Of a stretch of 64,000 nt of DNA, positions 19,319 through 39,098 are shown in pieces. Source of the DNA: Staphylococcus simiae (GTDB lineage: Bacteria; Bacillota; Bacilli; Staphylococcales; Staphylococcaceae); contig NZ_CP071589.1 of the NCBI RefSeq assembly GCF_017357005.1, forward strand, positions 496,001-560,000, given 5' to 3'. A model generated the notes under the pieces. It saw only the letters and a list, made by a program, of their open reading frames with translations, searched no databases and had not been told where the DNA came from. Each line of letters begins with the position of its first letter. Within the stretch, counting starts at the first letter, position 1. The translations under genes and the position numbers were made by a program.

Positions 19319-19427
19319 TATGAATGTTTTAAATAACACATTATAAAGCTTCTCTGTCAAATTGGACTGATGCATAAAATTTTGGTTCTCTGTCAAATTG
19401 GACTGATGTATAAATTTTTTATAGAAG

Positions 19428-20713
19428 TTAAGCAGCAATTTGTTGTTTAACTTCTTTTTTATTTTCAGGTGCATATAGTTTTGAACATAAAAGAATTCTG
19501 TTGCGCAAATGATTGTAATTTCCATAACCAAAAGATGTACGTTTAATAAGTTTGATTTTATTATTAATACCTTCAATAGGACCGTTGGTCAAATTGATAT
19601 AATTGAAAGTATGTTCGATGAAGCAAGCATGTTTTTTCAACGTTTTAATGGCTGTTTTTAATGATGGATGTAAGTCTGAAAGTTTTAATTGTTCTATGGT
19701 TTGTTTAAATGAGTCGAATTGGCTATGTTTCAAGTCATGTCGTAAATTATTAATCACTTCATATGTCTCTTTAAGGGTATCATCTTGGTCTAACAAGTAT
19801 GTCACGATGCCTTTTTGCGTCTTCCATTCTTTAAACAAAGGTACCTTATTATATTCATACAATTCTAAGTCTTCGGTTGGTTTAAGTACAAGTTTCCAGT
19901 AACGCTTATATTTATTATATAGTGATTTATTTAGGTCTTTAAATACGTTCATAACGGCTACACGAATACTATTTAAAGCTCGATTTAATAGTTGAACAAT
20001 ATGGAAACGATCGATAATAATTTTAGCGTTTGGAAATAGTTTTTTAATTAAAGTCATATAAGGTTCATGCATATCGATAGTCACTGTCTTTACTTGCTGT
20101 CTATCTTTTAAAGAAAAGCGGTAAAAATAAGTCTTGAGTGATTGAAGTCGACGATCTTCAACAACATCTATAATTTGATGTGTTTGTGCATCAGCGAATA
20201 TAAAGCTCATATGACCCGAAACGTTCTTGACACTTTTAAACTCATCCATCATTAGATGTTTGGGTAGTGAAGCATACGGTGATTGTTTTAAATAATCTGC
20301 TGCTTGATCAATAAAACGTGATACTGTTGCCGTTGAAACTGAACATGAGCGTGCAATAGATACTTCTGATCTCACATCCACAGCTTTTTCGATAACTGCT
20401 AGACGTGTATTATTTGAAATATGACAATATGGATTTATTTCTGGTGTTTTGCTGTGAAATAGCTATGACAAACTCTACACAAATAGCGTTGCTTACTTAA
20501 CATTAAATAAGCTGGACATTCAGATACCTTAGGTATCGTAATTCTAGATACTTTTTTACCATTTTTAACGATTTGATTGTCTGTATTTTCAGTATGACAA
20601 AACGGACATTCATCAATATTATTTCTTAAAGTACCATAGTAAAATTTACATAATTTCCCTTTATAATGTTTTTTAGTTAATTTTTCGCTATAAATAATGT
20701 TTTGGTCTTCCAT
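19428..20713 (-). pseudogene. ISL3-family transposase, one-base frameshift
   Basis: The N-terminal part (20713 to 20435; zinc-finger pairs CPFC and CRVC) and the rest (about 20447 down to 19428; HTH SVSTATVSRFIDQ, then the DDE domain with TIDMHEPYMTLIKKLFP) are in different frames. The protein reads smoothly if one A is restored in the four-A tract at 20447-20450 (minus strand): ...FTAK then TPEINPYCHISNNTR. That would give about 428 residues, the normal ISL3 length. Either a true loss of function or a homopolymer sequencing error. Confidence 0.85.
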
Positions 20714-20746
20714 ATTAAGTGTATCTTATATAAAATTTTGCATAGG

Positions 20747-20805
20747 CGCATTATCTCCTTAGATTATTTGTTTGGTCACTTTTAATTATAGAGATAATTG
20801 CGCTT
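20747..20805. repeat. Inverted repeat in the gap after the ISL3 element
   Basis: GCGCATTATCTC (about 20747-20758) and GAGATAATTGCGC (about 20790-20802) are inverted copies differing by one base insertion, with a T run after the right arm. It could be a weak terminator or an IS remnant. Confidence 0.35.
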
Positions 20806-20824
20806 TTTTCATATTCAAAATACA

Positions 20825-20876
20825 AAAATCGGACTAATAGAAAATAACTAAAAAATTCTCTATCAGTCCGATTTAT
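20825..20876. repeat. Hairpin repeat with ISL3-like arm, copy 1
   Basis: AAATCGGACTAATAGA pairs with TCTATCAGTCCGATTTA across about 18 nt. A near-identical hairpin recurs at 50057-50106. The arm read inward resembles ISL3 end sequences (TCGGACTGATA). It may be the outer end of the damaged ISL3 or an independent miniature repeat. Confidence 0.5.
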
Positions 20877-21031
20877 TATAGAGTACATTTTTAATTTTAA
20901 TGCTTAGTTTAGCTCTATATTAAATGTCTAAGTTTAGGACTGTAATACTCGATTATCTATAGTTTGAAAACGAGTATCAAGCTATTTTACAGATAATAGA
21001 TCAATATCAAATGAAGTGTTATGTAAAAATA

Positions 21032-33735: not shown

Positions 33736-34007
33736 GAGTGGGACAGAAATAAATTTTATATAAAATTTATTTCGTAGATGCCCGTCTTGCACATTTAAAG
33801 CTACTTAGATTTTAATCTTTAGTAGCTTTTATGCAATTGTTGCGTTAGCAACCAATTGTAATCCCTATATTTCTCTATGACGGGTCCCTCCCACCCCCGG
33901 CAAGACTGACTAGGTTTTCAAAATGGTGATTTATCAACGCTTTGAACACCAGACAGTTACTGCCAAATGCTTAAATTTAAGTGTGAAATACGTTTTGTCC
34001 CAGGCTC
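33736..34007. repeat. Modular intergenic repeat, copy B (long form)
   Basis: Runs from GAGTGGGACAGAAAT to TTTTGTCCCAGGCTC, reversed relative to copy A. It includes the central module from ATGCCCGTCTTGCACAT to CTATGACGGGTCCCTCCC, which forms its own GCCCGTC/GACGGGT hairpin. The rest of the 834-bp araB-epimerase gap is AT-rich with no gene that I can see. Confidence 0.75.
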
Positions 34008-34337
34008 GACATAAATATATGTCAACAATAATTAACATATATTTATAGTAAGAACTGAGGATAGAAATAGCGTGTTAATCATATTTTGGTTGTTATTTAT
34101 AACAATCGGTATTACTCCTAATTAAGACACTTATTTATTCATTGATAGCTATATACGTTGTTTGTTAGTTAAGATAAACAGTATTTTTGATTTTAATATC
34201 AAATATTATGGCTAAGAACACTACATCATTATATGTGACTAAGTGAAATTAATGATAATAGTAATTTATAAACTTTAGCTAACATAAGGCAGTTTTTACA
34301 TTTTTTATGACTAACAGATGTATTCACGGAGTATACA

Positions 34338-37205: not shown

Positions 37206-37889
37206 ATGGAATGGATTTTATTTGATAAGGACGGGACGTTAATAGAGTTTGATCATAGTTGGGAAAAAATAGGCGTAAGATTTGTTGAACAATTATTAGA
37301 AACATTTCCAGTTTATGATAAAGAAGCAGCACTTAGACAGTTAGGCGTAATTAATAACAAAATAAATCCACAATCAGTGATGGGGTCAGGCTCGTTAACA
37401 CAAATTATAGAAGCTTTTAATGATGTAACACATAGTGATACTACTGATTGGGCTAAATCAACAAGTCAAAAATTAGTCGATAACAGAGAACCAGAAATTA
37501 ATTGGGTTCAAGGTGTTAAGGACGCTATATTAAATTTGAAGCAACAAGGCTATAAAGTAGGTATTGTGACAAGTGATACTAAAAAAGGTGTAGATCAATT
37601 TTTAGAGTATACGAATAGTGAAAATTTATTTGACTTAATCATTTCAACAGAAGCTCATGCCTATGAAAAACCTGATGCTAGAGTGTTAGCACCTCTATTT
37701 GAACATTATCAAGTTGAACCACAACAAGTTGCAATAGTTGGTGATACCAATAATGATATGCAAACAGCAGTTAATGCGAAACTTGGTCTTGCAGTTGGTG
37801 TATTAACAGGTATAGCAACAAGAGAAGAATTAGACCAAGCAGATGTAATCATTGATAGTGCCAAAGACATTTTGGATGTTATTAAATAA
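37206..37889 (+). CDS. HAD-superfamily phosphatase
   Basis: A 227-residue HAD hydrolase. The motif I aspartates are in FDKDGTL (residues 6-12), motif II is TSDTKKG and motif IV is GDTNNDM. The alpha-helical cap suggests a small-molecule phosphatase of the phosphoglycolate-phosphatase subgroup. It sits between ilvE and the deoxynucleoside kinases as in other staphylococci; substrate unknown. Confidence 0.85.
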   Translation: MEWILFDKDGTLIEFDHSWEKIGVRFVEQLLETFPVYDKEAALRQLGVINNKINPQSVMGSGSLTQIIEAFNDVTHSDTTDWAKSTSQKLVDNREPEINWVQGVKDAILNLKQQGYKVGIVTSDTKKGVDQFLEYTNSENLFDLIISTEAHAYEKPDARVLAPLFEHYQVEPQQVAIVGDTNNDMQTAVNAKLGLAVGVLTGIATREELDQADVIIDSAKDILDVIK

Positions 37890-37957: not shown

Positions 37958-38006
37958 AAGTCCCATTAATGTTAAGCTCATACGAAACACTAATGGGACT
38001 TATATT
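37958..38006 (+). terminator. HAD gene terminator, next to a MITE-like insertion
   Basis: AAGTCCCATTA (37958-37968) pairs with TAATGGGACTT (37991-38001). The right arm overlaps the left 8-bp target duplication of the element at 38007, so the insertion landed at the terminator's tail. Confidence 0.8.
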
Positions 38007-38300
38007 GGTTCTCTAACAAATCGGATTGATACATAATTAAATTTTCAAGCCTCGCTATGCTCAACCTTGCCCGTCTTGCACATTAAAGTAAAAATTTTAT
38101 TTTCAAAATTTTTCTATGACGGGTCCCTGCATTGCATGAAAAAACTGGATAACCAGTTTTTCTGTGTTAGGTCCCTTCCTAGGGTGCTGTCTCAGCCTGT
38201 AGTCTTCGACTAGCACTGCTCCCTCAGGAGTCTCGGCTTCAAATTAATTTTCGTTTTAAATTATTCATTTTTATTTATCAGTCTTAAAAAATAGAGAACC
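38007..38300. mobile_element. 294-bp MITE-like element with ISL3-type ends
   Basis: It begins GGTTCTCTAACAAATCGGAT and ends (inverted) GGTTCTCTATTTTTTAAGAC. The outer 9 bp are identical and a GATTGATA/GACTGATA block matches further in. The ends resemble those of the ISL3 element at 19384. CTTATATT flanks it on both sides (37999-38006 and 38301-38308), a perfect 8-bp target duplication, the size ISL3 elements make. It has no transposase. The interior carries the GCCCGTC...GACGGGTCCC hairpin module also found in the long intergenic repeats, plus further hairpins. It fills most of the 543-bp gap. Confidence 0.8.
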
Positions 38301-38432
38301 CTTATATTATAGGTATTAAATAAATAACAATACTGACTAAGGTATAAAATTGTGTTTTCTTTGTCTAAAAATTAGCGTAATATACCCTCTTTATACGCAC
38401 ATCATTAATTATTTTTACGAATTATCAAGTTG

Positions 38433-39098
38433 TTATTGTCGCTGATCAATAGCACGGTGCGTATTAATAATATAGGCAATTTTATCAATGATAGGATCTA
38501 AAGAATCTGGGTTAGTATGAATATCATAGTCATTGATATTCACTCTAACTACTGGACACGCATTAAATTGATTAATCCAATCATCATAACGTTTAAACAA
38601 TTTTTTCCAGTAATCTGGATCAGTATTAATTTCCATTTCACGTCCACGTTCTTTAATACGTTTAATGACTTCATCATAATCACATTCTAAATAGATAAGG
38701 ACATCAGGTTTTGGAAAATAAGGTGTCATGACCATAGCATTAAATAAATCGGAATACGTTTGGAAATCTTCTTCTGTCATCGTACCTTGTTCCTCGTGCA
38801 TTTTAGCAAAAATGTCAACATCTTCATAGATAGAACGATCTTGTATAAATCCACCGCCATATTCAAACATACGTTTTTGTTCTTTAAAACGTTCTGCTAA
38901 AAAATAAATTTGTAAGTGAAAACTCCATCGCTGAAAGTCATTATAAAACTTGTCTAAATAAGGATTATGATCAACATTTTCGAAAGAAGTTTTGAAATTA
39001 AGTTTGTCTGCAAGTGCCTGTGTTAAAGTAGATTTACCAACACCTACAGTACCTGCTATCGTAATAATTGCATTTTGAGGTATATCAAAATTAGTCAT
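38433..39098 (-). CDS. Deoxynucleoside kinase, Dck-like
   Basis: A 221-residue kinase that salvages deoxyadenosine and deoxycytidine. The P-loop is GTVGVGKST near residue 16, DRSIYED is the base/sugar-binding motif, and the LID has RIKERGREME. It starts 8 nt inside the end of the upstream Dgk-like gene, so translation is coupled. The Dck label follows the Bacillus pair; substrate preference is not certain from sequence. Confidence 0.87.
   Translation of the reverse strand: MTNFDIPQNAIITIAGTVGVGKSTLTQALADKLNFKTSFENVDHNPYLDKFYNDFQRWSFHLQIYFLAERFKEQKRMFEYGGGFIQDRSIYEDVDIFAKMHEEQGTMTEEDFQTYSDLFNAMVMTPYFPKPDVLIYLECDYDEVIKRIKERGREMEINTDPDYWKKLFKRYDDWINQFNACPVVRVNINDYDIHTNPDSLDPIIDKIAYIINTHRAIDQRQ

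Follow-up and report, generated by a model that had tools for sequence, protein, structure and literature searches.

A non-autonomous ISL3-type element with STAR-type hairpin units in a Staphylococcus genome, and its probable part in their dispersal

The locus and the anatomy of the element

The window, i.e. the whole stretch of 64,000 nucleotides analysed here, carries a transposed element of 294 bp at positions 38007-38300, and the initial annotation that had pointed to it is herewith confirmed. The element is inserted in a convergent intergenic region, between a HAD-type ORF and a deoxynucleoside-kinase-like ORF. The features to be considered are as follows:

19384-20884, - strand: ISL3-family IS, transposase split in two ORFs (20438-20713 and 19431-20381)
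37206-37889, + strand: HAD-type ORF, left neighbour (name read from the translation)
37958-38001, no strand: host hairpin with a 16-bp stem and a 12-nt loop; the element landed at its right foot
37999-38006, no strand: target site duplication, left copy, CTTATATT, 8 bp; single in the empty site of S. simiae CCUG 51256
38007-38300, + strand: non-autonomous ISL3-type MITE with STAR units, 294 bp
38007-38036, + strand: left terminal repeat
38057-38175, + strand: outer STAR-type hairpin unit at site A, with motif TGTGTTAGGTCCC, split by the nested unit
38067-38127, + strand: nested STAR-type unit, GCCCGTC...GACGGGTCCC, 60-61 bp, inside the outer unit; exactly absent from sister copies of 234 bp
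38176-38238, - strand: conserved stem-loop module of the MITE core, like part of S. aureus tsr24 (RF02577) and like leaders of IS1182-family transposases elsewhere
38271-38300, - strand: right terminal repeat, inverse of GGTTCTCTATTTTTTAAGACTGATAAATAA
38301-38308, no strand: target site duplication, right copy, CTTATATT, 8 bp, matching the left copy perfectly
38433-39098, - strand: deoxynucleoside-kinase-like ORF, right neighbour (name read from the translation)

Inspection of the sequence located GGTTCTCTA at 38007-38015 and, as its inverted counterpart, TAGAGAACC at 38292-38300, while GATTGAT and inverted GACTGAT form a second matching block at equal depth in the left and right ends. The terminal repeats are about 30 bp long and agree with each other, by eye, at 21 of 30 bases. 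The coordinates, inverted ends, second block and perfect 8-bp duplication originally described are thus all present at 37999-38308, and the lack of coding capacity was also correctly noted, as the ORF list contains no frame of at least 60 aa within 38007-38300. The element is short and gene-less, with terminal inverted repeats, a target duplication and many dispersed copies, as is typical of a MITE.

The landing site had been described as the tail of a terminator stem. The hairpin itself is there, its 16-bp stem ending at 38001 with TATATT directly next to it in the empty site, but the terminator was not recovered by the terminator scan, whose rule admits only loops of 3-8.

Copies, empty sites and the ISL3 relationship

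By sequence, the host genome (G000) is placed close to S. simiae, and S. simiae CCUG 51256 has a BCAT protein with 99% identity to that of the host. At the locus of the element this strain reads without interruption through ...CTAATGGGACTTATATTATAGG..., with one CTTATATT, i.e. an exact empty site. At two further loci, 1570015 and near 716.6 kb, comparison of the host with its relative G061 revealed a single octamer in one genome where the other carries the element. It should be added that near 62.7 kb the window holds a different sequence from the element found in G061 (L262).

The end pattern was matched 151 times (86 + 65) in the 2.62-Mb host genome, against 3 matches (2 + 1) for the reversed pattern. 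Around these matches, 38 end pairs had flanking octamers agreeing at 7 or more of 8 positions, including 27 perfect ones, whereas in the control with shifted flanks only 2 of 1020 pairs reached 7-8 of 8. Because of this excess of end matches, of the 38 copies against the control and of the exact empty site, the element cannot be considered a product of chance. An open frame of 120 codons across the empty site was absent in 36 of the 38 empty sites.

Sorted by size (by eye), the 38 copies fall into three groups: 14 are end-only forms (67-89 bp), 12 measure 134-176 bp, ten of these representing the module core, and 12 carry STAR units and measure 188-419 bp. The octamers, 56 in total from the 38 copies, two interrupted host copies (see below) and 16 copies of G061, consist of 88% A+T, and 53 of them are different. 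Both checks that the initial annotation had suggested, other copies with different 8-bp duplications and a relative with an empty site, hence gave positive results, the former many times over. In the plasmid collection no full-length copy of the element was found; 34 records match it partly, at 90-95% identity, with the stem-loop module (query 166/170-229) being the matching part in the 30 listed.

These data bear on the possibility that the repeats were spread via recombination or gene conversion between intergenic repeats instead of transposition. STAR arrays do change their unit number by slippage within a locus, as stated in Purves 2012, and the forms at 796551 and 1173969 resemble the outcome of a deletion joining two STAR units within a single MITE. 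Against this, unrelated loci show exact 8-bp duplications as well as empty sites, and Purves 2012 itself argues against recombination between loci. As the main route for ISL3-ended copies, recombination is refuted by the single-octamer empty site; it may still act inside arrays, and as a general explanation we consider it very improbable.

As for the origin of the ends, 24 of 30 positions of the left one (by eye) agree with the left end of the IS at 19384, as do 28 of 28 in a sister MITE, whereas at the right end of the element only 19 of 30 (by eye) match the right end of the IS. An ORF of this IS scored 263.6 bits against NF033550 (ISL3 transposase), and a second genomic copy encodes a 429-aa transposase frame (G000:338353-339643; 314 bits to NF033550), so that the ends were aptly called ISL3-type. 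The element shares an A+T-rich 8-bp duplication and its ends with an IS coding for an ISL3 transposase; since it has no ORF, and hence no ISL3 transposase of its own, it is to be seen as a derivative of ISL3 and not as an IS of this family. Just before the IS, at 19348-19384 (genome positions 515348 and 515384), two ISL3 left ends lie in tandem, 36 bp apart, perhaps pointing at a nested or repeated insertion.

The IS at 19384 is probably inactive, judging by its transposase being split into two ORFs. In the second copy (L258, G000:336416-339783), a group II intron that is oppositely oriented and encodes a 431-aa RT/maturase (TIGR04416) cuts the transposase gene close to its 3' end. With both host copies damaged, the presence of a working ISL3 transposase in the host strain is not certain. 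G061 contains ISL3-type transposase frames of 466, 412 and 364 aa plus one fragment, and the ends of its ISL3-type elements, where visible, belong to another subtype. That an ISL3 transposase could act on the MITE in trans is nonetheless plausible from the sequences compared.

STAR-type units and the stem-loop module

The interior, first reported as a hairpin module shared with staphylococcal intergenic repeats, indeed contains such a module, and we identify it by sequence as STAR-type units. Compared with the published motif TNTGTTGNGGCCC, the window copy has two mismatches in TGTGTTAGGTCCC and three in TATGACGGGTCCC and thus lacks the motif in the substitution-free form given in Purves 2012; sister copies differ by one mismatch, and some units by none. 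Intergenic direct repeats with recurring sequence of some 40 bp or more between them are present, 38109-38128 being repeated at 38157-38176 (start-to-start spacing 48). Three bases beside the CCC/GGG of the STAR hairpin pair in 144 of 148 regex matches, which include overlapping matches of one unit, against a shuffle mean of 99.6 and a highest value of 111. The outer 3-bp stems occur in the combinations AAC/GTT, AGC/GCT, GTC/GAC, GTT/AAC and AGC/GTT.

Comparison of copies showed that a 175-bp core MITE gained a STAR hairpin of 58-59 bp at one precise internal site, site A (GCCTCGCT^TTCCTAGGG). Where the core reads ...CAAGCCTCGCT^TTCCTAGGGTGC... (alignment by eye), 234-bp copies carry ATGCCCAAC...GTTGGGTCCC. 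The window copy possesses, in addition, TTGCCCGTC...GACGGGTCCC of about 60 bp, placed between GCTCAACC and TGCATTGC, and other copies have STAR units at two further sites, CACTG^ and CAGCCT^. According to a regex script, the junction of the site-A insert (58 bp by the rule applied; 119 bp in the window copy with its nested unit) is identical in ten copies, drawn from two genomes, and 13 cores lack the insert. In the aligned copies, no target duplication flanks the STAR units in the MITE. The sequences show both forms, core and STAR-bearing, together with the exact points of junction, 8-bp duplications that differ between copies, and empty sites.

In the backbone tree, six of the ten STAR-A copies, the window copy included, cluster together despite different octamers, and the remaining four are positioned among the cores with weak support. 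Owing to the latter, repeated STAR insertion or reshuffling by recombination is possible. One could go further and assume that only STAR units are mobile and that every MITE copy received its insertion independently; units at three internal sites, nested in each other and outside MITEs, as well as the four copies among the cores, would fit such a scenario. We regard it as unlikely, given one site-A junction in ten copies, the cluster of six with different host duplications, and the window locus, which went from empty to a MITE with STAR inside. No locus among those compared was occupied by a core MITE in one strain but by a STAR-bearing copy in a second one. STAR-bearing copies at different loci with different 8-bp duplications argue for STAR units having been carried by ISL3-type transposition.

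Two additional STAR-bearing MITEs with perfect octamers (G000:1069718-1072322 and G000:2319599-2322332; L200, L027, L030, L242) are each interrupted by an IS21-type element (IstB, NF038214), located inside or adjoining a STAR unit. The coding sequence of this IS21-type element occurs at about a dozen further places.

Next to the STAR units lies the stem-loop module, which was found, within matches to the MITE core, in 44 of 84 genomes of the genus, host genome included. An alternative reading of the interior is that it was retained for a functional RNA, a relative of S. aureus tsr24, or for a terminator. RF02577 (tsr24) does reach the Rfam gathering score, though marginally (50.4 vs 50 bits) and with a match extending beyond the element; other Rfam matches were below their own gathering scores, chance-like, and were discarded. 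Fold z-scores of -3.98 and -6.45 and covarying pairs across 25 distinct modules (module length only, strands sorted) also speak for an RNA, but fold scores are raised by the inverted ends alone, the module is missing from 14 of the 38 copies (the end-only forms), and the empty terminator scan weighs against a terminator. On sequence grounds we therefore deem such a role improbable.

At two loci tested, the module precedes IS1182-family transposase genes. In other staphylococci (L165, L166, L161, L145) it was seen just upstream of IS1182-family transposase genes or their remnants, where it may possibly serve as a regulatory leader. In further genomes (L324, L326), STAR units lie, by eye, beside or within such stem-loop modules.

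Overall, the initial interpretation as a transposed element is supported, and we consider it highly probable that a MITE derived from an ISL3 IS and moved by an ISL3 transposase in trans took up STAR units and spread them by transposition. The ancestor would be the 175-bp core, a conserved stem-loop module flanked by two ISL3 ends. An ISL3 transposase would recognise the GGTTCTCT...GACTGAT ends in trans and move the MITE, with AT-rich target DNA being duplicated over 8 bp, as the anatomy of the element suggests. STAR hairpin units, each about 58-61 bp long, would have entered the core at a small number of exact positions, leaving the target unduplicated, and would likewise have entered one another; subsequent transposition of STAR-bearing copies would bring the units to new places.

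Reach of the proposed vehicle and comparison with known systems

The exact motif TRTGTTGGGKCCC is present 68 times in the host genome, in 49 clusters, with no match to the reversed pattern; the window copy, having a variant motif, is outside these 49 loci. Nineteen of them are flanked by both ISL3 ends, oriented as expected, and 14 have one end, while 16 are without an ISL3 end, eight being in the GTGGGACAG scaffold only and eight in neither. This sorting used loose end patterns, with both ends found on one strand at 105 of 5000 random positions in the same stretches.

Among the 84 genomes of the genus, the strict STAR motif was detected in 44, with some clearly coding chance hits, and more than 100 ISL3-end matches only in G000 and G061. 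An association of STAR with ISL3 ends across the genus was considered and rejected, G004, G006, G008, G059 and G066 showing 43-80 STAR motifs with 2-11 end matches. The largest number of STAR motifs, 272, was recorded in G042, with 3 end matches. In S. aureus-like loci, STAR is located in the GTGGGACAG scaffold. Since S. aureus-like genomes are rich in STAR without having many ISL3 ends, the ISL3 vehicle explains STAR dispersal in the simiae group only. It should also be added that the window contains a second repeat scaffold, GAGTGGGACAGAAATAAA...GGCAAGACTGACTAG...GTCCCAGGCTC, at about 33800-34020 (read in alignment), which is the usual STAR context of S. aureus; further copies of this scaffold near 25.8, 35.7, 50.1 and 59.3 kb are BLAST matches only.

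What STAR does, where it comes from and how it propagates are called unknown in Purves 2012, where 'a transposase mechanism' is only guessed. In the literature searched, with subscription titles outside reach, no paper joining STAR with a MITE or ISL3 was found. A transposition vehicle for STAR becomes visible here in one species group, through its empty sites, its duplications and the exact junctions of STAR; a gene-less element of 294 bases demonstrates one route by which STAR can spread through a staphylococcal genome, and pairs of core and STAR-bearing MITEs provide exact before/after boundaries of a STAR unit, making its dispersal testable.

More tentatively, and with considerable doubt, we suggest that STAR units may constitute a separate class of mobile hairpins (about 58 bp). 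They would paste themselves at fixed points into other hairpins, namely the MITE module, the leaders of IS1182 and other STAR units, leaving no target duplication and perhaps using a structure-reading transposase like that of the IS1182/IS1272 family, and would then ride on whichever transposon owns the hairpin. Their carriers would be the ISL3 MITE in the simiae group and the GTGGGACAG...GTCCCAGGCTC scaffold in S. aureus.

With ISL3-family ISs and their non-autonomous derivatives the element shares inverted ends starting with GG, A+T-rich 8-bp duplications and an ISL3 transposase in the same genome; the ISL3-like transposon described in PMC5559704 has 25-bp ends and duplications of 8 bp that are AT-rich. 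Unlike those ISs, the MITE copies lack a transposase, measure 67-419 bp and have a chimeric interior with foreign hairpins. The units resemble S. aureus STAR (Cramton 2000, as cited in Purves 2012) in the motif TRTGTTGGGKCCC, in tandem or nested units of about 56-60 bp and in their intergenic position at many loci; they differ in the usual final letters (GTCCC vs GGCCC there) and in lying mostly within the ISL3 MITE, in contrast to the GTGGGACAG scaffold of S. aureus-like genomes. The core stem-loop is akin to tsr24, with only the middle part truly alike, but forms the centre of a MITE and elsewhere also precedes IS1182-family transposase genes. Finally, IS1272 (IS1182 family) transposes at hairpins by stem-loop replacement without target duplication, as reported in PMC5678879. 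By analogy, the insertion of STAR units into MITE hairpins would be similar in lacking a target duplication, although IS1272 is autonomous and replaces the stem-loop, whereas STAR units are gene-less, about 58 bp long and mostly add to the hairpin.
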